From positions 1 to 64,000 of IMG/VR virus record IMGVR_UViG_3300005264_000022: a stretch of DNA of 64,000 bases, one strand, 5' to 3'. A model generated the notes under the pieces. It was not told the DNA's origin, ran no database searches, and saw nothing but the letters and a program-made list of their open reading frames with translations. The position numbers were made by a program, and so were the translations under genes. Positions 7,389 through 53,513 of this stretch are shown in pieces; the stretch's first letter is position 1, and every line of letters begins with the position of its first letter. The stretch is from a virus.

Positions 7389-7400
7389 ACTACACCTCCT

Positions 7401-7643
7401 TTATGTAATAGATACATCTGTTTTTGGATTACCCCTTACAAATAAATATCTACCGTCTGTTACGTACTCTAACCTTTCACCTATTTCAATAGGATATCCT
7501 ATTATATTAGAACTGGGGACTTCATCTGCCTCAGATAAGTAAACGTAAAATTCTTTCTTTTTATCTATATTTTTTATTATTACTGAACTACCTAGAACGG
7601 GAATGTTTTCCCATTCTGATAGTGTCTTGTTGTTTGTTATCAT
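7401..7643 (-). CDS. small beta-sandwich-like protein, first gene of late minus cassette
   Basis: 80 residues: SVIIKNIDKKKEFYVYLSEA, a loop, then IEIGERLEYVTDGRYLFVRG. That order (strand, YVYxS, loop, GE-containing strand, LYAI-like strand) matches its neighbour and small phage decoration domains. It starts behind GGAGG about 30 nt below the late-type promoter. Assignment is structural inference only. Confidence 0.5.
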   Translation of the reverse strand: MITNNKTLSEWENIPVLGSSVIIKNIDKKKEFYVYLSEADEVPSSNIIGYPIEIGERLEYVTDGRYLFVRGNPKTDVSIT

Positions 7644-7674
7644 TCATACCTCCTTTTATTATTTTATTGACCCA

Positions 7675-7704
7675 CTATATTAGACACTACGATAGTCGTG
7701 ACAG
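7675..7704 (-). promoter_or_regulatory. late-type phage promoter, copy 3 (leftward)
   Basis: A 30 nt stretch that aligns without gaps to those at 47915 (+) and 53553 (+); 19 of 30 columns are identical in all three, including GTGTCT plus ATAT at the -10. Reading leftward it runs CTGTCA, then ACTATC, then GTGTCTAATATAG. It drives the 7643-6637 cassette. Confidence 0.65.
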
Positions 7705-7705
7705 T

Positions 7706-7729
7706 AAAAAAGTAGGAAATAAATCCTAC
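7706..7729 (-). terminator. Rho-independent terminator
   Basis: Leftward GTAGGA / TCCTAC stem with a 6 nt loop and six U. It ends the transcript of the 51-codon gene and insulates the late promoter behind it. Confidence 0.8.
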
Positions 7730-7738
7730 CTAATTATA

Positions 7739-7894
7739 TTATCCGTAATAATCCATAGCTAGAGATTTAATTCTTTTTACAGAAGACGGCTTTGGTTCTT
7801 CCTTCAATACTTCTCTAATTGCTCCAGTATAAGTATTACCACCTTTTACTAGCTCACTCACTTCTTTTAATTCTCTCATAAATTTTACTTGCAT
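7739..7894 (-). CDS. small hypothetical protein (51 aa)
   Basis: ATG at 7894 follows CTAGGAGG at good spacing. It reads MQVKFMRELKEVSELVKGG and ends SLAMDYYG. It is the last gene before a strong terminator, so it is a real transcription unit end. Function unknown. Confidence 0.5.
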   Translation of the reverse strand: MQVKFMRELKEVSELVKGGNTYTGAIREVLKEEPKPSSVKRIKSLAMDYYG

Positions 7895-7902
7895 ATATCC
7901 TC

Positions 7903-8247
7903 CTAGTTAGATCCTATGATAACGTTTGATACATCTACATTGTTAGCCTTAGCCCAAGCAACTAAATCATCAGTATTGCTTATGACAGTTGGCTTAGTCC
8001 ATATATGATTCATAGAATTGACAGTTAAGCTTCTACCTAATATTTGATGTTCCTCTGTTATTTCATACACACTTACTATTTCATTATCTTTGTAAATATC
8101 GCAAATATAAGCAACCTCTCCGAAGTTAGATGTATTTCCATTTTGCCAACCTACTAACGTTCCAATATTAGTAACAGTAACTAAACCTCTTATCCCTTCT
8201 TTATCCTCTAATACCATTCCACCTTTTAATTCAATACCATCTCTCAT
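7903..8247 (-). CDS. hypothetical protein
   Basis: 114 residues, beta-rich N-half (ELKGGMVLEDKEGIRGLVTV) and a C-terminal helix (DDLVAWAKANNVD). It lies 3 nt from the PcfJ-like gene. No family recognised. Confidence 0.5.
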   Translation of the reverse strand: MRDGIELKGGMVLEDKEGIRGLVTVTNIGTLVGWQNGNTSNFGEVAYICDIYKDNEIVSVYEITEEHQILGRSLTVNSMNHIWTKPTVISNTDDLVAWAKANNVDVSNVIIGSN

Positions 8248-8250
8248 TCC

Positions 8251-9441
8251 TTATCCTCCTATGTATTTACTTATTTTTAATTCTTTAGTTTTTGCATACT
8301 TTTTTATAAACTTCATTTCATCTGCACTCGGATTCCTATTTAATAGTCCTTTAACTTGATATATTGTATCATTTTGTATCTCCATTGTTAACAATCTTTC
8401 ATCAATTTCTTTTTTATTTCTAATGAATACTACTAATGTCTCTCCATCTATTACCTTGTTTATATATGATTTAACACAATGCGAAAGCTCTCTTCCCTCT
8501 AACTTCATATCATCGGTATCTTTTGGATAAATTACTATAAAATTTCCATTATCTTCATATTCTAAATTAGTATTAATATACATCTCTGCAAATATCTCTT
8601 CCGAGTACTGCTCTTTAAATAGGTTGTAATGAGATGATATAATGTCATGCTTACTTCTTAAAAATTTAGGATACTTTTCTACCGACTTTTTGTTCCTAGC
8701 CATAGCTAAGCTTTGTGAATAATAATCTTTTAAGTAGCCTAAACTACCACCAAACCTTATACCCTCTATTTCTTTTATGTAGACTATATAATCAACAAAC
8801 GATTTATAATCATAATTATACTCTTTTATAAACTCAATCATTTGTTCAAATCTCCACACATTTAATCTTATAAAACTTTTTACACTAGAGATATCGTGTT
8901 TCATATTCATATGTCTAATCATATTGAAATATACATCTCTATTCTCACTATTTACTATCCTAAAAAAAACATTTTCTATTTTACAATTTCCATCACTACA
9001 CACGTTTATTAATATTCTAATTATATCTTTTGGTATTAACTTCATGTCTACATTGCTTAGATATACATTATCCCTTAAATTAATCCCTAACTTATGAAAT
9101 GGCTCTGCTTTTATATATTTACCCATCCTAGACAGGAATGTCCCTACACTATAACAAGTGTTTTCTTTTTTGTTTACATATTTCATAAAGTCTATGAACT
9201 TCTCATCATTTATATTAGAAAAAGCTCTATCTATATTGTATCCTCGAAAGAATAATGTTAAACTTTTAGCTTGAGACTCTTTTCCATTTTTTTCTCTAAA
9301 CATATTTCCAGTCTTTAGATCATACTTGGCAATACCCCTTTCATCATGGCTAAATATTAACACTCCTCTATCTTTAATTACATTCATCAATGTACCCTCA
9401 TCTCCATCTATTATTTTAATTCTTTTAAAATCTAACCCCAT
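8251..9441 (-). CDS. PcfJ-like protein
   Basis: 396 residues. The C-terminal 100 residues carry the PcfJ signature: LEGRELSHCVKSYINKV, then GETLVVFIRNKK, LTMEIQND and QVKGLLNRNPS. PcfJ-like proteins occur in conjugative elements and phages; their biochemical role is not established. The N-terminal two thirds are helical and unlike anything I can name. It overlaps the next gene by 17 nt. Confidence 0.7.
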   Translation of the reverse strand: MGLDFKRIKIIDGDEGTLMNVIKDRGVLIFSHDERGIAKYDLKTGNMFREKNGKESQAKSLTLFFRGYNIDRAFSNINDEKFIDFMKYVNKKENTCYSVGTFLSRMGKYIKAEPFHKLGINLRDNVYLSNVDMKLIPKDIIRILINVCSDGNCKIENVFFRIVNSENRDVYFNMIRHMNMKHDISSVKSFIRLNVWRFEQMIEFIKEYNYDYKSFVDYIVYIKEIEGIRFGGSLGYLKDYYSQSLAMARNKKSVEKYPKFLRSKHDIISSHYNLFKEQYSEEIFAEMYINTNLEYEDNGNFIVIYPKDTDDMKLEGRELSHCVKSYINKVIDGETLVVFIRNKKEIDERLLTMEIQNDTIYQVKGLLNRNPSADEMKFIKKYAKTKELKISKYIGG

Positions 9442-9994
9442 TTAGATCTGCCAGTCTTTTCACTTGTGCATTTAATGCTCTTATTTCTCTCTCTATCGTA
9501 TTCTTTTCTCCAAATCTAGCAATCAGTTTCAAGCAGTGAAACAAGATTCCAGTATCATCCTTTTTGTTTAATTTCCATTGTCTAGTAATAAAGTATGGAT
9601 CTAGTCTTACACTACCATTATCTATATCTGATTGTGTTAATTCATATTCGAATCCATAATGTTTATCGGAAAAACCCCCATTGTTTGTAGATTGCCCTTT
9701 ACCTTCCTTATTTAACATATCTTTCATTTCTCCACTAGCCACTGTTTCATCATAATCATATATGTTCATTTCTTCCTCCTTAGTTACAAGTTCATCGTCA
9801 TAAATCTCTCCAGTTTTTTCAACTACATCATAGACATTACCACTACAAAAATCATTTTCTTTTTCAAAATCCTCTATCATTTTATCTCTACCCTTTCTGA
9901 CATTATAACAAAACACTTCATTTGTTCCAATAATATTATATCTATATTGTTCATTATGACTCAAACAATGGTCTATCACTTCTTTATAATTCAT
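9425..9994 (-). CDS. conserved phage protein, unknown function
   Basis: I start it at the ATG at 9994, which has GAGGGG upstream, rather than at the TTG 12 nt earlier; that gives 189 residues. The N-terminus (YKEVIDHCLSHNEQYRYNI) is separated by an acidic linker from a C-terminal block (LDPYFITRQWKLNKKDDTG, then KLIARFGEKNTIEREI) of a kind I associate with small conserved phage proteins. No enzymatic residues stand out. Confidence 0.5.
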   Translation of the reverse strand: MNYKEVIDHCLSHNEQYRYNIIGTNEVFCYNVRKGRDKMIEDFEKENDFCSGNVYDVVEKTGEIYDDELVTKEEEMNIYDYDETVASGEMKDMLNKEGKGQSTNNGGFSDKHYGFEYELTQSDIDNGSVRLDPYFITRQWKLNKKDDTGILFHCLKLIARFGEKNTIEREIRALNAQVKRLADLNGVRF

Positions 9995-10020
9995 TATTCC
10001 CCTCAAGTCCGTTCTCTTTC

Positions 10021-10122
10021 TTATTTTTTTTTCTCACACGCATAAATTCTTCCAAAGTTACTAACTTTATATAACCCTTCATACCCTTCAACGTCTTTCC
10101 AAATTTCAAATTTATCTATCAT
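10021..10122 (-). pseudogene. NUMOD4 remnant of an HNH homing endonuclease
   Basis: 33 codons reading EIWKDVEGYEGLYKVSNFG then RIYACEKKK. This is an almost complete NUMOD4 motif, the DNA-binding module at the N-terminus of HNH homing endonucleases; compare DIIEYEGLYKISSYG in the full enzyme at 26536-27048. It stops in a run of nine A with no HNH part following. Its ATG overlaps the endolysin stop (ATGA). A decayed endonuclease is most likely; a retained DNA-binding peptide is possible. Confidence 0.6.
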
Positions 10123-10652
10123 ATTTTTATATCTCCAAGAGAGCTACGTTTGAGAAGCCATCCACCAATAAATGTTTCATTTTTTTCTCTAGCTTTAGTA
10201 ATTTCTATATAACGGGAAATCTTGTTCGCCTCAAATATCAGTCTTAGCCTCGATGGATCATTAAACCTATTTACATGACCTATTGTATTTTTACCTATCA
10301 TTCCATCAACAACTAAAGGATTACCTTCAACGCACATATTGTAAGCCTCTTGTAATATCTTCACAGCTCTACTCCTACCCGAATTTACTGCTATGTCAAA
10401 TACTTTATATGCCAATTTTTGATCGCTAAATTCATCTAGTCTTAATGGATTCCAATATCTATTTGAATATATTTCCATAGCTAATGAATATGGTAGATCT
10501 TGCATCCTACCTCTATATCCATACTCTCTAGCAACTGCCTCTGTTATTCCATATCGAGTCGCCCCTCCTAAATCTCGACTATCATTCACATAGCCTTTCT
10601 CTAATCCTATCGTCTTCTTTATACTAGCCTTGGCTAATTTACTCATACTCAT
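10119..10652 (-). CDS. GH108-family endolysin (N-acetylmuramidase)
   Basis: 177 residues from the ATG at 10652, which follows AATAGGAGG with 10 nt spacing. GH108 features: GLEKGYVNDSRDLGGATRYG (catalytic Glu in the EKGY motif), ITEAVAREYG, YWNPLRLDEF, KVFDIAVNSG. It cleaves peptidoglycan at lysis. A frame extension to an ATG at 10697 would add a hydrophobic IIILIGG-like segment that could act as a signal anchor, but its ribosome-binding site is weak. No holin was recognised next to it. It stands among early-strand genes, far from the tail genes. Confidence 0.82.
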   Translation of the reverse strand: MSMSKLAKASIKKTIGLEKGYVNDSRDLGGATRYGITEAVAREYGYRGRMQDLPYSLAMEIYSNRYWNPLRLDEFSDQKLAYKVFDIAVNSGRSRAVKILQEAYNMCVEGNPLVVDGMIGKNTIGHVNRFNDPSRLRLIFEANKISRYIEITKAREKNETFIGGWLLKRSSLGDIKI

Positions 10653-10774
10653 TAATAATATTCCTCCTATTAATATAATTTTAATCTTATCAGACATTTA
10701 TCACATCCACAAATAATTCTTGTATTACTTTTTTCTATAAGTTTCACTACATATTTACCTATAATATTTGTATT

Positions 10775-10802
10775 TTGAGATTTTATAGTATTTTTATATA
10801 AT
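10775..10802 (+). promoter_or_regulatory. possible rightward promoter for a small RNA
   Basis: TTGAGA, 16 nt, TATAAT on the plus strand, placed just before the symmetrical hairpin element at 10824-10910. No plus-strand protein follows. Weak evidence. Confidence 0.3.
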
Positions 10803-10823
10803 TTACCACTCACATATAGCTCT

Positions 10824-10910
10824 GAGAGTTCGCTAGTAAGCCACTACGAAGTTTTAAATCAAATTAGGTAATCTAACTAAGGTAAAAACTCAAGTGGCTT
10901 AAAAGCTCTC
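10824..10910. ncRNA. nested long-hairpin element (candidate small RNA or cruciform)
   Basis: Four nested complementary pairs: GAGAG/CTCTC, TAAGCCACT/AGTGGCTTA (9 bp), AGTTTT/AAAACT and TTAG/CTAA. The symmetry lets either strand fold. It occupies the 10653-10919 gap between the endolysin and a small gene, where no frame is convincing. Imperfect copies of a GAGCT-ATATG-GAG stretch (minus strand) flank it. No U-run, so not a simple terminator. Confidence 0.45.
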
Positions 10911-10919
10911 ATATAAGCT

Positions 10920-11186
10920 CTATACTTTTTCTAATATAATTTTCTTAATATCCTTCTCTTTTCTATTAATATATTCTAGTAATTCTGTTAAAGTTTTAGC
11001 TTCGTCACATGACTCATTCATATAAATTCTAATAATTTCATTAATTGCACTTTTAATATCTCTGTGATACCCTCTGTGAGTCCAAGACTCTTTTTTAACT
11101 CCATCTTTTTCTGTTATTGATTTCTCATGTAATGTTACATTGAAATAATCGCTATTAACCAATTTCCATTTATCAAATAATATCAT
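10920..11186 (-). CDS. hypothetical protein
   Basis: 88 residues starting MILFDKWKLVNSDYFNVTL; a short beta region then two helices (IKSAINEIIRIYMNES, LTELLEYINRKEKD). Behind AGGAGG. Function unknown. Confidence 0.5.
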   Translation of the reverse strand: MILFDKWKLVNSDYFNVTLHEKSITEKDGVKKESWTHRGYHRDIKSAINEIIRIYMNESCDEAKTLTELLEYINRKEKDIKKIILEKV

Positions 11187-11195
11187 TTAATCCTC

Positions 11196-11534
11196 CTAAT
11201 CTACAAATTTAATTTCTTTTACATCGTACTTACTCAAACTTTCATATATATTTCGTGCTTTTATATAATTTTTAAATGCTCTATTTTTAGCATTTATTAA
11301 TAATTGCCTTTTTATGTACTCGGTATCACAATCTCTCTCATAATACGCAATATTTCTATCTTCTTTTAATATTCCTATTTGCATCCTTTTTAGATATACA
11401 GAATTGTTATTTTCATCTCGATATTCACCACGATCTTTTCGTCCGCATATTCTATGCAACGTCAATGGTCTTTTTATAAAGTATGATTTTTTACTAGTTA
11501 TACATAGCCTCAACTGTATTATTTCATCCTCCAC
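11196..11534 (-). CDS. hypothetical protein
   Basis: 112 residues, N-terminal strands and a basic helical C-half (AKNRAFKNYIKARNIYESL). Its stop and start abut its neighbours (one base shared with the upstream stop). No family recognised. Confidence 0.5.
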   Translation of the reverse strand: MEDEIIQLRLCITSKKSYFIKRPLTLHRICGRKDRGEYRDENNNSVYLKRMQIGILKEDRNIAYYERDCDTEYIKRQLLINAKNRAFKNYIKARNIYESLSKYDVKEIKFVD

Positions 11535-46265: not shown

Positions 46266-46445
46266 TTGAATATAGAATATATTAGAGATGGAAAGTATAG
46301 GATAGATGGTGAATTGTATGAAATGCAGAATTGTATAAACCCGTATGATGAATGTGAAGGTTGTGCATTTGAGGACTGTTGTGGAGATCAAGAATTTTAT
46401 TGTGTTAAATATGAGAGTTGTAATTTTAGGAGATTAGATGAATAA
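46266..46445 (+). CDS. small Cys-rich protein (59 aa)
   Basis: TTG start at 46266 behind GGAGG. It reads MNIEYIRDGKYRIDGELYEM then a C-terminal half with seven Cys (NCINPYDECEGCAFEDCCGD, FYCVKYESC), so at least one metal site. Overlaps the helicase start by 8 nt. Confidence 0.5.
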   Translation: MNIEYIRDGKYRIDGELYEMQNCINPYDECEGCAFEDCCGDQEFYCVKYESCNFRRLDE

Positions 46446-47910
46446 TTATACAGATGAGCAATTAGCAATAATAAATAGTAAGGATAAAGTTATAATAGGT
46501 GAAGCAGTGAGCGGATCAGGAAAATCTAGCACTGCGGTAGGTTTTGCGAAAAAAAGAAGAAACAAAAAGATACTGTATTGCGTATATAACGCCTCCATGA
46601 AAAAAGAGAGTGATAGAGATTTTAAGCATTTATCTAATGTGACAGTAAAAACTACTCATGGACTCGCATATGCAAAGTTTGGGTTTAAATATAAGAATAA
46701 ATTGTTGAGAGGAAGTTATAGAGTTACAGATACTATAAAGGATTTAAGATTAGGCAGAAAAGATTTCGACTTTGCTAGTCAAATATTAGATATGTATAAT
46801 TATTATTTAATCTCTGATTTTGATACTATTGAAGAAGCAGTTGGCGTTAAATATGAAAATGATACTACTATTAAAAAGAATTTAATAAAATATATTAATA
46901 AGCTATGGAAGAAGAAAGTTGATGTTAGTAGTGGGGTTGGGATAAGCCATAACTTCTACTTAAAATTATACCAATTATCTAAGCCTAATTTGGGAAACGA
47001 GTATGATATTTTAATACTAGATGAGCTACAGGATGGAAATATGATAATATTAGACTTATTGAATAATGCCAGTTGCGAACAAAAATTATGTTTAGGAGAT
47101 TCTCGGCAACAAATTTATTCATGGAATGGGGCAAAGAACGCACTACAGAGAATAAACGGTACTAGATATTCTTTATCTAACTCATTTAGAGTTGGGCAAA
47201 GAACTGCGGAAATATGTAACTATATCTACAAGGAATTTCTTAATGAGGATTTAAACATGAAAGGCTTAAATACTAATCATAATATATACTCACATAAGAG
47301 CCTTGACGTGTACTCTAAGAGCAATCTAACAGTTATATGTAGGAGAAACTCAACTGTATTAGAACACGCCCTAGAATCGGTTCTGAGAGGTCGTAGCATA
47401 TGTTTCATAGGTGGAATTAAAGGATATAAATTAGATCTATATAAATCTGCATATTATTTTATGGTAATGGGAACATCAAAAGATCCAATGCTATCTAAAT
47501 ATTCTTCATGGAAAGAAATGGTAGACTGTGCAGAGGAGACGGAAGATACGGAACTAAAATCAATAATTGGAATAGTTAAAAGATATAATACTAAAATTCC
47601 CGAAGGTGTTGAGAAAATAAAGGAATGTGTTACAACAGATATGAAAAATGCAGATATAATATTAACCACCGCTCATAAGTCTAAAGGATTAACTATTATG
47701 GGTGAAGGAACTTTGATAGCAAGTGATATGATTAGTTTATGCGAACTAAAAGAGTCTATTATAGGAATAGCTCAGAGTGGTGATGTAAAGTATGCTATGC
47801 AATATTTAGAAGATAATAGAGAGGAGTTAAATTTGTTATATGTAGCATTAACTAGGTCAAAGACAAATTTGTATTTAAATGACGATATTATAAAATATTT
47901 AAGAGGGTAA
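46438..47910 (+). CDS. UvrD/Rep-like superfamily I helicase
   Basis: 490 residues: Walker A GEAVSGSGKSSTAVGFAKK, motif Ia TVKTTHGLAYAKFG, Walker B YDILILDELQDGN, LGDSRQQIYSWNGA (motif III), SNSFRVGQRT (IV), TTAHKSKGLTI (V) and NLLYVALTRSKTNLYL (VI). A short SF1A helicase, likely for repair or recombination. AGGAG upstream. Confidence 0.85.
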   Translation: MNNYTDEQLAIINSKDKVIIGEAVSGSGKSSTAVGFAKKRRNKKILYCVYNASMKKESDRDFKHLSNVTVKTTHGLAYAKFGFKYKNKLLRGSYRVTDTIKDLRLGRKDFDFASQILDMYNYYLISDFDTIEEAVGVKYENDTTIKKNLIKYINKLWKKKVDVSSGVGISHNFYLKLYQLSKPNLGNEYDILILDELQDGNMIILDLLNNASCEQKLCLGDSRQQIYSWNGAKNALQRINGTRYSLSNSFRVGQRTAEICNYIYKEFLNEDLNMKGLNTNHNIYSHKSLDVYSKSNLTVICRRNSTVLEHALESVLRGRSICFIGGIKGYKLDLYKSAYYFMVMGTSKDPMLSKYSSWKEMVDCAEETEDTELKSIIGIVKRYNTKIPEGVEKIKECVTTDMKNADIILTTAHKSKGLTIMGEGTLIASDMISLCELKESIIGIAQSGDVKYAMQYLEDNREELNLLYVALTRSKTNLYLNDDIIKYLRG

Positions 47911-47914
47911 TACG

Positions 47915-47944
47915 TTGACACAACTTTCTGCGTGTCTTATATAG
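47915..47944 (+). promoter_or_regulatory. late-type phage promoter, copy 1
   Basis: TTGACA, 17 nt holding CAACTTTCTGC and GTGTCT, then TATATAG. Same 30 bp motif as at 53553 (+) and 7675 (-). Lies immediately after the helicase stop and faces the non-coding RNA region. Its leader contains GATGAG/CTCATC and a 9 bp ATCCTTTTA/TAAAAGGAT stem (47985, 48015). Confidence 0.7.
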
Positions 47945-48059
47945 ATGAGTTGATTAATTTCGACTCCCTCATCTCTTTTCATGTATCCTTTTAAATCGCT
48001 CTTGGGTGGTGGCGTAAAAGGATTTAGTATTACCTCACCGCCCATCAAGATAAAAAGTG

Positions 48060-48088
48060 TTGACAATCGCAATTGATTGTGTTATAAT
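48060..48088 (+). promoter_or_regulatory. perfect-consensus vegetative promoter for the large RNA
   Basis: TTGACA, 17 nt, TATAAT, with GATTGTGT before the -10 as in several early promoters. No protein gene follows for more than 1 kb, so its product is RNA. Confidence 0.88.
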
Positions 48089-48094
48089 AATTTT

Positions 48095-48953
48095 AGTTAT
48101 AAGTGATTAGGCACTATAAAGAGGGATACGAAATTTATATACCACCTAGAGATAATATATGGGAAGAACGTTAGGATTTATTCGTGCAATGGGATAGCGT
48201 TCACGATAGAGAGGTTTGGGTATTTTCTATCAAAGCAATAAGTCGAGAACAGCGGACGGGACTACAAACCTCACCGCACATATGGATATTTAGCTCAAAT
48301 GGTAGAGGAGCTGTCGGCACAGGCGGTTAGTTGTGGGTTCAAATCCCATAATATCCAAAACTATTATTAAATAGTGATGTAACTATTAACTATCGGTGCT
48401 AGTAGATCCGATTAATTAAAATAACTCTAAAGGAGTAGAGACTTCCTATATGTAGAATAAAAGTTGACGGCAAAACTGTTACAAGACGCTTGGCTATATG
48501 TCATAAAAGTATCAGTCCGATTATAAGATGTCGGTTAAAATTGAGGTTGCAAACTCAATATCTTTTAGAATTATTCCATATATACTTAGTAGCGAAAGAC
48601 AATCACCTCTCATAGAAGTGTCTCATGTGTCTCCTAGTAATAGGACGGATTGAAAGGTATATCCTTATAAGATGGAGTAAAATAAAAACCAATTCGAAAG
48701 CTCAATCGTTAAGAGCATTAAAAAAGTATGGCTTATGCTTAGGTCGGTAGATTAATTTCTGAAAGTAATTCGAGGTTATAATTGGACGTGCCTTGAATGA
48801 TAAGTATTTTATATGATGACCTCTTAGAGCCAAGAGGTAGCTAATCAAAAGAAGGCTCAATCAGAAGAAAAAGATTTTGTATCAACTTATCATTTATTTG
48901 AAAGGAGGTCAACATTATCTCGGCATCTGCCCTCCGTTATGGGTAGTAAATAT
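48095..48953 (+). ncRNA. large structured non-coding RNA candidate (GOLLD/ROOL-like setting)
   Basis: About 860 nt between a perfect promoter and a tRNA gene with no convincing reading frame on either strand. It is far more GC- and purine-structured than the neighbouring coding DNA and rich in stems: GAGGTTTG/CAAACCTC (48211, 48265), CTATT/AATAG (48361), ATCGG/CCGAT (48393), CTCTA/TAGAG (48425), ATTGAG/CTCAAT (48539), CCTA-GTAA-TAGG with a GNRA loop (48633), CCTCTT/AAGAGG (48820) and GGAGG/CCTCC (48904). Phage position, length and the adjacent tRNA match the giant RNAs called GOLLD and ROOL. That identity is inference; no sequence match could be tested. End and exact start unknown. Confidence 0.6.
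48284..48357 (+). ncRNA. tRNA-like fold inside the large RNA, no usable anticodon arm
   Basis: GGATATT/AATATCC form a 7 bp acceptor, GCTC...GAGC a D-arm with a GGTAGA loop, and GTGGG-TTCAAAT-CCCAT a canonical T-arm. The bases between (CTGTCGGCACAG region) do not make a 5 bp stem with a 7 nt loop. So it is a decayed tRNA or a tRNA-like module. A second cloverleaf-like piece, CCAATT...AATTGG with a GCTC/GAGC arm, lies at 48689-48785. Confidence 0.45.
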
Positions 48954-49028
48954 AATCCGTTGGTGTAATTAGTAGCACGAGATTCTCCAAAAATTTAAGC
49001 GAGGGAGCATAACCTTCACGGATTGCCA
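48954..49028 (+). tRNA. tRNA-Trp (anticodon CCA), CCA end encoded
   Basis: Acceptor AATCCGT/ACGGATT (7 of 7), D-arm GTGT/GCAC, anticodon stem AGATT/AATTT with loop CTCCAAA, T-arm GAGGG/CCTTC, discriminator G and CCA. The T-loop is AGCATAA rather than the usual TTCRANY, so it departs from the canonical form there. It directly follows the structured RNA and is probably cut from the same transcript. Confidence 0.85.
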
Positions 49029-49029
49029 A

Positions 49030-49152
49030 ATAAGATAAAGCGAGTGTAAAAGTTTCAAACTTTACCTCATACACAATCTTATAATAATGAAGCTAGTAGT
49101 CAGTAAGAACGTTCCTCGAACTCTAGGAATCTACTGTTTTCGCTACTCGCTT
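49030..49152 (+). ncRNA. structured RNA segment after the tRNA (possible pseudoknot)
   Basis: ATAAGAT (49030) pairs with ATCTTAT (49076), while AAGCGAGT (49038), which lies inside that pair, complements ACTCGCTT (49145). Both together form a pseudoknot. Inner stems GTGTA/TACAC, AGTAG/CTACT and TTCCT/AGGAA add to it. There is no reading frame. It ends just before the GGAGG of the Rha-like gene. Confidence 0.5.
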
Positions 49153-49169
49153 AACTTATAGGAGGTTTA

Positions 49170-49874
49170 ATGGATTTAATAAAGATTGAAAGAAATGAAG
49201 ATTATGGATTAGTAGTATCAAGTAGGACGATAGCAAGTGAATTAGAAAAACAACATAGCGATGTGGTTAAAAAGATAAAAAATGTGTTAGAAAGTGGAAC
49301 GGAAAGTTTTCCTGTCCAGTATATGAACAGAGGAAAGGAATCTACTGAACACTTATTAACTAAAGATGGCTTTGTGTTATTAGTTATGAATTATGTTGGA
49401 TATAATGACTTTAAAAGATCTTACATTAATAAGTTTAATGAAATGGAAAAACAATTAAATTCAATTACAAAAAAGAAAATGTTACTAGCAGACTTATTTG
49501 ATGAAGATAAAATGATTGTAGTGCAAGCACATAAAGAATTAGTTAGATTGGAAACCGCACCTTTAATAGAAAAGATTGCATTAGATGAACCTAAAGTAGA
49601 ATACCATGATAAAGTTTTAGATACTGACAGTTCATTCACTACAACACAGATAGCAAAGGAAGTAGAAATGACTGCTAGAAGTTTAAATATAGTATTAGAG
49701 CAAGAGGGTATTCAATTCAAACAATCTAAACAATGGATGTTGAGAGCTAAATATCAAGATATGGGATTAGTTAAGACTAGAACATATGTTACAGATTGTG
49801 GAATATCATCACACGCTACAGTATGGACAGAAAAAGGTAGACAATTCATACAAGAATTATTATTAGATATATAA
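49170..49874 (+). CDS. Rha-family regulator with KilAC domain (second copy)
   Basis: 234 residues: Rha part VVSSRTIASELEKQHSDVVK and EHLLTKDGFVLLVMNYVGY; KilAC part SSFTTTQIAKEVEMTARSLN and FKQSKQWMLRAKYQ. Paralogue of 39982-40740. ATAGGAGG upstream. It is first after the RNA region, so it is expressed from the same promoters. Confidence 0.87.
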   Translation: MDLIKIERNEDYGLVVSSRTIASELEKQHSDVVKKIKNVLESGTESFPVQYMNRGKESTEHLLTKDGFVLLVMNYVGYNDFKRSYINKFNEMEKQLNSITKKKMLLADLFDEDKMIVVQAHKELVRLETAPLIEKIALDEPKVEYHDKVLDTDSSFTTTQIAKEVEMTARSLNIVLEQEGIQFKQSKQWMLRAKYQDMGLVKTRTYVTDCGISSHATVWTEKGRQFIQELLLDI

Positions 49875-49892
49875 AAAATAGGAGATGATGTG

Positions 49893-50180
49893 ATGCAAGA
49901 AGGATTATTGAAATTTGGAGAAGCAATCAAACAAATGAAAATGGGTAAAAAAATAGCTAGAAATGGTTGGAATGGAAAAGAAATGTACGTAGTATATATG
50001 AAAGGGTATCCAAATGGAATAGGAGCTAATAAAAATACAGCAGATGCTTATGGTGTAGAAGAGGGTACTATAATGAAATTTAGACCATATATGCAACTCA
50101 AAACTGCACAAAACGACATAGCTATGTGGAGTCCAAGTGGTTCTGATACATTAGCGGAGGATTGGATAGCGGTGGGATAA
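49893..50180 (+). CDS. tad2: DUF2829 protein, Tad2 family (anti-Thoeris)
   Basis: 95 residues from the ATG at 49893 (AGGAG upstream). The DUF2829 pattern is clear: KFGEAIKQMKMGKKIARNGW, NGKEMYVVYM, FRPYMQLKTAQNDIAMWSP, ending DTLAEDWIAVG. Tad2 proteins with this domain bind the gcADPR signal of Thoeris and block the defence. Function here is by family; some DUF2829 proteins bind other cyclic nucleotides. Followed by a terminator. Confidence 0.82.
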   Translation: MQEGLLKFGEAIKQMKMGKKIARNGWNGKEMYVVYMKGYPNGIGANKNTADAYGVEEGTIMKFRPYMQLKTAQNDIAMWSPSGSDTLAEDWIAVG

Positions 50181-50194
50181 TTAAATAAGAAGTG

Positions 50195-50230
50195 ATAGCT
50201 AAGATATTGTTTCTTGGCTATTTTTATTTT
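50195..50230 (+). terminator. Rho-independent terminator
   Basis: ATAGCTAAG / CTTGGCTAT (9 bp with one G-U), 9 nt loop, then UUUUUAUUUU. Ends the Rha/Tad2 unit ahead of the terminase genes. Confidence 0.78.
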
Positions 50231-50269: not shown

Positions 50270-50974
50270 ATGAGTAAATTAAAGAGGAGTTTAGCATCAG
50301 AAAGAAAGTATCAAAAGTTTTATTTAGACAAAGAATCGGTACCCGAAAATAATGTAAGTCCAGTTATCATTTACGAGAAACCTAGAAATCCATTGACTAT
50401 AAATAGCTTAATGGGTATAAATTATCAAGCGGTGTCAAAGGAGAAATTAACACACAATGTAATTAATCAATGGCACATAGAAGAGGCTCTTAGAAGAGAA
50501 ATGGCACACGAGAGAATAAGATCTAATATCTTAGCTAGGAGAATGATTGCTAACGGCTTAAACGCCACACTAGAGCTTGATGAGATTAAGGAATATGAAG
50601 AAGGTTTAACTAATGTAATACAAGATGATATTGATATGGTTATGGAAAAAGCTCCTAGAGGTATTCGTGAGGAAATATTAATAAGAGTTAAAAATGAAAT
50701 GGCTAAAGTATCTATTGAAATCAAACAGGATTATGAATATAATTTATTTAGAATTGATACGCAATTAGCATACCTAGATTCATTAATGGCGGATGTTATT
50801 TCTGCACAAGATAGAAGGATTTCATTGAAAGATAAAACATCTATTTTGCAAAGGTTATCTAAAGAGCAAAGAGAGGCTATTAAAATGAAGAAGGAAATAT
50901 TGCAAGATATGGGTGTCAATCTAAAAGAAGTGAGTAATATATGTTGGATTTATCACTGTCTAGGGACGAGATAG
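50270..50974 (+). CDS. terminase small subunit candidate
   Basis: 234 residues from the ATG at 50270 (AAGGAGG, 5-6 nt); the frame opens further up, inside the terminator. Strongly helical (EEALRREMAHERIRSNILAR, DDIDMVMEKAPRGIREEILI). No HTH I can point to. It overlaps the first terL codons by 34 nt; that position is the main argument for TerS. Confidence 0.5.
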   Translation: MSKLKRSLASERKYQKFYLDKESVPENNVSPVIIYEKPRNPLTINSLMGINYQAVSKEKLTHNVINQWHIEEALRREMAHERIRSNILARRMIANGLNATLELDEIKEYEEGLTNVIQDDIDMVMEKAPRGIREEILIRVKNEMAKVSIEIKQDYEYNLFRIDTQLAYLDSLMADVISAQDRRISLKDKTSILQRLSKEQREAIKMKKEILQDMGVNLKEVSNICWIYHCLGTR

Positions 50975-53513
50975 AACAACTTAAATCTATAGAGGTACTA
51001 ATAGAAGAGGTAAAATCTACAGAGGACGCAGATGAGCTTATAAAGACCTTAGCTAGTAAACATAATATAGTTAAATCATATCTGAGTGAACTTAGACTAG
51101 CCAATATGCCAGAAAAAGATGTCAAGTATGTAAAAGATGTCAATGCTAGAGTATGGGGTATCTTAGAACCTATCTATAACCATTTAGTTGTAATGGCTAA
51201 GGAACATATGAATCAATGGTATAAGAGGATTAAGAGAGAGAGTGGGGCTATCGATCCCAAGTTATATGATTATCAAGAAGATTTAGCTAATTTTTTACTA
51301 GAAGCTATAATAAAAAATGAATTAACAGACACGATATATACGTTGGTACTATCAAGGGGTGAATGAGTTGCCCTCCTATATAGAAATATATAGGTAATAA
51401 TTCTGCTTAACCTAGAAATCTAGGGTGTGGTGCTAGTATAGTACTGCTAACGGTTGATAGCTGAAGCTCCTGTCGTGAGACATAGGTATGCCAATCCCGT
51501 GCAAGAAGGTGTTATGAGAGATTTATAACACTGGCGAAGTGTAACGATCAGACGAATATTGAAAGTAACGCATAAGGTTATTAGTAGGTTAGTAGTCGTA
51601 GGTTTAATGCGAAATTCATTATTCCGAAAGAGCAGAGGGCTTAACATTTGAAGATGAAGTCTAAAATATGATCTAGTCCCACTATTAAATTAGTGTTAAA
51701 ATACTACGAAAGTAGGGGTGTCAACGAGTGGAAAAACATATACCTTATCCGTGGTAGGAGCGTTCATCACGTTACATCACGACAGTTATATTTTACACAA
51801 TTCCAACACGGATTTTGTAATGATTATATCAGCACCAACACAAAAACAATTATCGGGATTCTATGATAATATATCAGATTTCATGAGTGTATCAAAATCA
51901 GTAGGTATAATATCAGATAAGAAATCAGAATCCTCTGAATTGAACTTAATTCAGACTAAAGATAATGTAAATGAAACACAATTATCAACCTCTAGTGGTG
52001 CAAGGTTTGCTACTATTTTCTATAGACTAGGAGCAGACTCAATAGAGGGATTACACTGTAATTAAAATAATGGTTACGTAACTTGGTGAACCTATAAATA
52101 TAGGGTGTCATATTAAATATGGCTAACGGTTTCCCCTTCAGTAATGATGATTGCTATGGCGACATAGTGGGATGTAAGCGAGGCTAACTCCATAATGGAT
52201 ATGCGAATACCGTGGATTTACTTATGTAGGTCTGTAACGACTAAAATATATCGTATAGATAAGATATAGAGACTGGTAGGATGAAATGCCTATTGGGTAG
52301 CGTCAAGCAACTCTAGTAGTTGAAGAGATAGTCTAGTCCGACTCTTAAATGAGTGTTGAAGTACAGTGAAAACTGCGGTAGTTCGTTATTAATGGTAGAT
52401 GAAGCCAAGTTTTTGTCGCGTAGAGCGATAACTCAAAATTTATTGCCTATTACAACCACTCGTAGTGGGGTATTCCTTATGCTATCATCTGCGAATGATA
52501 AGTGGTGTGAGTTTCAAGATTACTGCTTTAAAAATAGAGAATTGGATATAATTGATACTGAAGAAAAAGGTAGCAGATTAAGAAGGAAAGGTTCGGATGA
52601 AACTAAGAATTTATATTTCTATGGTAGAAGGCATTATCAAAATCATTGGGAATATATGGTAAAATCAGATCCAAAATACATGATGGCAATATCTACACAT
52701 TTAAATGCAGTAGGAAATAATAGAGAAGACACATCTTTTGCTACACAAAGAGATAACCTATTCTTATCTAAAAAGACATCATCTTTCTTTGATATAAATG
52801 AGCTAGAAGGCATTGGAATATTTCAATATTATAATCCACATACATTTATTAACAACCCTCGTTATGTTATAGTCGGAGGACTTGATATTGCCGTGAGTGG
52901 AGATATTTCGGATTTTACAATCAAAGCTATTGAGAATGGGTATGGAATGGATAGGAAGTCTTATATATTATTTAGAATGGTAATGAACCCGACTAAGTCA
53001 AAACAAGCAGACTCAGTATATAATCAAATGAAATCTGTATTTCAATGGATAAGAGATATGAGAGCAGTTAGATATACTAAATTGCATGAGAAGAATATAT
53101 TCCCTATTGTATTTAATAATAAAAATAGATTTGAGATATTAGAACATTACTATAATAGAATACAGTCGGGATTAGAAATTATGCCTAAAATTCCCGAAGA
53201 GTATAAGGTAGATGAGCAACTTAGAAATATGTATATAAAAAATAAAGACAAGTTTGATGATGAGTCTAACTGGATTAGATTTGTACATGAACACGCTAAA
53301 TTCGGTAGAAATGAAATCAAGGATAATAATGATATGGTTAAGGTAGAATATAGACAAGCTAATGAAAAATATTTACATGACGATGCTATCTTTTCATCGA
53401 GTATTGCCTCATCTTGCCTATTGTACAATCCTAATGTTCATGCTACTGGTCACAAAGCAATCACATCTCAGAGAGGTGTATCAAGATTTAAAAGAAGTTG
53501 GAAGAAGAGGTAA
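50941..53513 (+). CDS. terL: terminase large subunit, split by two group I introns
   Basis: Joined exons 50941-51360, 51718-52057 and 52378-53513 give 631 residues in one frame. Exon 1 ends TLVLSRG; exon 2 starts VSTSGKTYTL, so the splice rebuilds the Walker A GVSTSGKT. Exon 2 ends IEGLHC and exon 3 continues SSLLMVDEAKF, the Walker B. The C-terminal nuclease domain shows VGGLDIAVSGDISDFT and KYLHDDAIFSSSIA. TerL pumps DNA into proheads and cuts concatemers. Unspliced RNA can only give fragments. Ends at a terminator. Confidence 0.88.
51361..51717 (+). ncRNA. group I intron 1 in terL (no ORF)
   Basis: 357 nt. P1: exon end AGGGGU pairs with GCCCU 9 nt into the intron, with the U-G at the splice site. 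Core words shared with intron 2: GGGTGT, GCTAACGGTT, GTAACGA, CTAGTCC, and a terminal GAAA-capped hairpin (CTAC/GTAG) two bases before the 3' splice site after G51717. No endonuclease inside. A boundary 3 nt later (51720) would also keep frame. Confidence 0.8.
52058..52377 (+). ncRNA. group I intron 2 in terL (no ORF)
   Basis: 320 nt. P1: exon end CACU pairs with GGUG downstream with a U-G at the splice site. GTAACGACTAAA and AGATAGTCTAGTCC form P7; the terminal CAGT-GAAA-ACTG hairpin is followed by CG and the 3' splice site after G52377. It splits codon UGU (Cys) after its first base. Sister of intron 1 by sequence. Confidence 0.8.

Follow-up and report, generated by a model that had tools for sequence, protein, structure and literature searches.

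What does a phage encode in a stretch of 1.26 kb (47911-49169) that contains no protein gene and is headed by strong promoters? The stretch lies within the window, i.e., the 64,000 nucleotides analyzed here, and the earlier note had proposed that it forms a giant structured RNA, either of the GOLLD or ROOL type or new. The absence of protein genes is confirmed, with no ORF longer than 57 amino acids between the UvrD-like helicase gene (46438-47910), which forms the 5' border of the stretch, and the rha gene. The perfect promoter claimed at 48060 also holds: P2 (48060-48088, + strand) reads TTGACA-17-TATAAT with an extended -10 TG, matches the consensus at 12 of 12 positions and is similar in type to further strong promoters in this phage (starting at 36140 and 14997, and others). 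The supposed late promoter, P1 (47915-47943, + strand; TTGACA-17-TATATA), is indeed promoter-like, but is sigma-70-like and not recognizably of a late type; its equivalent in two related phages, L021 and L022, is TTGTCA-16-TATATA. The helicase frame of L022 (3393-5900) comprises 835 amino acids versus 490, with an intein-like insertion after a ...LDEC motif.

Folding and modular composition of the stretch

The stretch resembles GOLLD and ROOL in its phage origin, its lack of ORFs, its tRNA-like neighbours and its length of about 1 kb, but differs from both in lacking a covariance-model match. Membership in these families was thereby rejected, as neither Rfam model matched at the gathering score or at E 10. 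Only tRNA (48284-48357) and the 6A RNA, RF02925 (48814-48865), were recovered in the stretch at gathering score, and no other Rfam family appeared at E 10, either here or in L021. The stretch contains no tmRNA, and a nucleotide search of the region against phages and plasmids gave no match. The description of the stretch as full of stems applies to three patches (approximately 47900-48109, 48250-48389 and 48950-49159), the only ones with a local folding excess. The excess is weak for the stretch as a whole: the global minimum free energy of 48098-49165 gives z = -1.96 on the + strand and -0.26 on the - strand, with coding controls ranging from -1.64 to +0.29.

The first of the structured modules, PK-A (47947-48043, + strand), consists of a hairpin (47947-47966) and an H-type pseudoknot with helices S1 (47985-47993/48015-48023) and S2 (48004-48012/48035-48043). 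A census of pseudoknots over the region did not rise above shuffled sequences, with the marginal exception of PK-A, the top-scoring one, whose score was reached by 3 of 30 shuffles. The element is conserved in L021 (7295-7393) and L022 (5935-6032) at 80-81% DNA similarity; S2 displays three double and two single compensatory differences and no broken pairs, and both S1 and the hairpin are kept. Since L021 hardly differs from L022 at this site, this covariation amounts to one comparison rather than two. A pattern search for PK-A recovered only these two phages, plus one chance match in coding sequence, and the element appears as a promoter-driven hairpin and pseudoknot RNA confined to a small phage group. 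The sequence behind PK-A differs among the three phages. In L022 the next gene follows shortly, and in L021 there is an ORF-free stretch (7395-7950, about 550 bases in total) that contains a strong promoter as well as a tRNA-like element whose anticodon loop has 6 nt; it is analogous to the window in layout and without similarity to it in sequence. Judging by these differences, the stretch resembles a set of RNA modules that can be exchanged behind PK-A. Further relatives, sought by means of the helicase and the ORFs at 50270 and 52353, amounted to only two phages, both without a 6A unit. Downstream in the window, a conserved ORF in a terminase-like position (50941-53513) is split at approximately 51366-51718 and 52065-52353; its counterpart in L021 lies at 8761-11468, the second gap containing an ORF that resembles a GIY-YIG homing endonuclease, and no Rfam intron match was found.

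Two tRNA-like elements are present on the + strand. Element 1 (48283-48358; predicted by ARAGORN, with an Rfam tRNA score of 44.7 bits), which had been overlooked together with the Rfam match at 48814-48865, has a tRNA-Trp-like body and an anticodon loop reading GCACAGG. Its body is nearest to the tRNA-Trp of Clostridia, and all five BLAST-matching loci that were checked are tRNA-Trp. Element 2 (48954-49028) is the one tRNA that had been seen, at which the proposed giant RNA was said to end. It is tRNA-Trp-like, with the Trp anticodon loop CTCCAAA, G73, an encoded CCA and a non-canonical T loop, and is detected by ARAGORN only, Rfam giving no match even at E 10. Judged by canonical anticodon and T arms, neither element qualifies as a functional tRNA: element 1 lacks U33 and has an aberrant anticodon arm, and element 2 lacks the T-loop consensus.

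A single new ornate RNA of about 1.07 kb, running from P2 to rha and including the tRNA-like and 6A parts as domains in the manner of GOLLD and ROOL, is unlikely. The ORF-free character, the strong promoter and the tRNA-like parts would be in keeping with it, as would the analogous order of PK-A, promoter, tRNA-like element and ORF-free sequence in L021. However, the unmatched GOLLD and ROOL models, the slight fold excess, which is lacking on the + strand of L021, and the dissimilarity of the two phages beyond PK-A all argue against it, and a covariation test has no relatives to draw on. For 48360-48800 no homologue was found. What stands of the earlier proposal is a non-coding, promoter-driven phage stretch with real structured RNA; a single giant folded RNA, known or new, is not supported. 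By sequence comparison, the parts backed by homology are separate small modules, namely a pseudoknot RNA, tRNA-like elements and a TenpI-type (6A) antitoxin unit, and a single long transcript spanning all of them is possible.

Identity of the 6A RNA

Rfam RF02925 is an sRNA family whose name, 6A, and type give no function. In its consensus, a hairpin is followed by an A-rich linker and by a tail that can pair with the hairpin loop. With a DNA pattern made from the window copy, genuine 6A units were retrieved from several viral contigs, and in two of these (L010 and L020) two units are followed by a terminator-like hairpin and then by an ORF of about 140 amino acids, identified as TenpN. Two similar units, with covarying loops and tails, are located upstream of toxins that a protein search recovered from Fusobacterium and Leptotrichia. 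Of 391 Clostridia-class genomes scanned with the 6A model, five were positive, and in each of them a TenpN homologue lies directly downstream on the same strand; the unbiased count is 4 of 4, because the fifth genome (G001) had been selected via its toxin. All nine aligned toxins belong to the TenpIN family of type III toxins according to the NCBIfam model, and single-sequence and profile searches of the PDB gave only a weak match to CptN (E 0.08).

The 6A repeats are spaced at about 51 nt and occur in two or three copies; this spacing and the arrays of two agree with the description of TenpI as 50 nt x 2.1 (PMC12373285). In an alignment of 21 units, 93% of the stem and pseudoknot cells are paired and 10 of the 11 pairs exhibit double changes, with a covariation score of 0.588 versus 0.205 for shuffled alignments; the signal is lost when the partners are slid. 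The 6A RNA is thus demonstrably a TenpN-linked repeat and likely the TenpI-type antitoxin itself, on account of TenpN adjacency, the NCBIfam assignment, repeat length and number, and covariation. No paper equating 6A with TenpI was found, in a search that did not extend to the 2017 paper believed to contain the first description of the motif. The present account thus departs from the Rfam entry, to which a function is assigned and a pseudoknot added.

6A units without a toxin gene

The window unit (48814-48865, + strand) matches RF02925 in sequence and structure at 46.7 bits, above the gathering score of 41.2 (E 5e-6), and scores 56 bits with our own model, R1, which includes the window copy among its sequences. 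Its hairpin, CCTCTTAGAGCCAAGAGG, retains the stem CCTCTT/AAGAGG, and the loop pairs with the tail GGCTC in a 5-bp pseudoknot (GAGCC/GGCTC). Differences from the family consensus at stem pairs 2, 3 and 7 and pseudoknot pair 5 are compensatory, and the flanks resemble repeat boundaries by inspection, with TGAT preceding the stem and AGAAGA following the tail. As read from its sequence, the copy is structurally intact. It shares with TenpI of the TenpIN type III toxin-antitoxin system the unit of about 51 nt, the stem, the loop-tail pseudoknot and the A-rich linker, but differs in being a single unit, without a toxin gene, within an ORF-free stretch of a phage. R1 detected no further significant unit in the window. 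A weak match at 48670-48712 (+ strand; repeat GAAAGCTCAATC), 155 bp upstream of the intact unit, scores 12.6 bits (E 0.015 within the region and 0.67 within the window) and may represent a decayed second unit, which is not claimed here. TenpN was absent from the 68,790-base phage record by two methods, with its detection in two other viral records serving as positive control; a TenpN gene could lie outside this 68.8 kb contig, which may be incomplete. The combination of tandem repeats, terminator and TenpN gene that characterizes a TenpIN locus does not occur in the phage record and, with one unit and no TenpN there, the element is called a stand-alone unit or decoy.

Units without TenpN recur in four lineages, the window included. 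In one lineage (L008, L014, L016 and L017), one unit lies between the portal and scaffold genes, and the units of L008 and L014 are identical at 54 of 56 positions (96%), compared with 597 of 848 (70%) over the full aligned length of 800 bases. L019 bears a solitary unit in an ORF-poor stretch (1384-1720) between holin and endolysin genes; the 5' half of a tRNA-Leu-like sequence directly follows it. The fourth lineage, L190, carries two 6A units and a terminator-like hairpin (1366-1467) before a PhoH-like gene. Since several of these records are fragments, the absence of TenpN applies only to the sequence they contain. Two additional 6A-like DNA patterns matched viral contigs mostly by chance, L190 excepted, and a Fusobacterium-type 6A pattern gave no matches.

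These comparisons bear on whether the window unit is a functionless relic of a TenpIN module that formerly resided in the phage and of which only the antitoxin half is left. Its solitary state, the missing toxin and the possible decayed unit upstream would suit such an origin, but the fully paired stem and pseudoknot with their compensatory differences, and the recurrence and strong conservation of toxin-less units in other phages, speak against it, and we regard a relic as improbable.

The proposed antitoxin decoy and its setting

Downstream of the stretch, the + strand codes for a Rha/KilAC antirepressor-like protein (49170-49874; PF09669 and PF03374) and a Tad2-like protein (49890-50180; PF11195, E 6.7e-24). 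Tad2 is a known type of anti-Thoeris protein, and its presence next door fits an anti-defence locus. No + strand terminator occurs between P2 and rha, the first terminator-like hairpin downstream of P2 being located beyond tad2 (50194-50222). The rha ribosome-binding site is located at the end of a hairpin region (49060-49165, + strand; fold z -2.43). This arrangement, together with a long inverted repeat that covers the ribosome-binding site of rha, would also suit a leader with a regulatory role in the rha-tad2 mRNA, in which the tRNA-like and 6A parts act in cis, e.g., as a TenpN-cut switch. Yet that repeat is near chance expectation by our estimate, and the other 6A units adjoin very different genes (portal-scaffold, holin-endolysin and PhoH-like), such that a leader function appears very unlikely.

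The reading we favor, and consider likely, is that 47911-50222 is a phage anti-defence locus producing a TenpI-type antitoxin decoy against TenpN, and that the window unit is probably a functional, natural decoy. In type III systems, the toxin cuts the antitoxin RNA into units and is kept inactive by this RNA, and phage takeover halts the antitoxin supply and frees the toxin, as established for ToxIN. By analogy, P1 and P2 would drive a long non-coding leader containing the TenpI-type (6A) pseudoknot. The host TenpN ribonuclease would cut out and bind the phage unit like its own TenpI, which it could do since the stem, the pseudoknot and the boundary-like flanks are kept. Infection would shut off the host TenpI supply and tend to free TenpN, and the phage-made unit would substitute for it, thereby preventing abortive infection. 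Transcription of the unit, its processing, its binding by TenpN and its benefit to the phage are steps that we infer.

Phage PhiTE escapes in this manner by making pseudo-ToxI, likewise a copy of a type III antitoxin RNA that is carried by a phage and for which mimicry was proposed (PMC3475682). The window differs in carrying a TenpI-type rather than a ToxI-type copy, and a complete, intact unit in a wild phage, whereas the wild-type PhiTE locus of 1.5 repeats encodes no full unit, is inactive and requires expansion (PMC3475682). The same comparison also counts against a decoy, as just one intact unit is present here. RNA anti-CRISPRs (Racr; PMC10651486) are similar as solitary phage copies of a host defence repeat RNA, but target Cas proteins, unlike the window unit, whose proposed target is a toxin-antitoxin ribonuclease. 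The decoy moreover leaves about 1 kb around the unit unaccounted for. PK-A and the flanking tRNA-like modules may be separate RNAs or domains, and a decoy role for them is only a guess. A broader locus mimicking several host RNAs (TenpI, tRNA-Trp as bait against tRNA-cutting defences and a new pseudoknot RNA), with cargo rapidly exchanged between related phages, is conceivable but rather doubtful.

The present analysis provides a likely function, that of a TenpI-type antitoxin, for an Rfam family listed without one, and shows that TenpI copies lacking a toxin occur naturally and repeatedly in phages. Phages may thus commonly counter toxin-antitoxin systems by RNA mimicry, a strategy known from PhiTE mutants selected in the laboratory, and solitary antitoxin units offer a simple search handle for phage RNAs directed against toxin-antitoxin defence.
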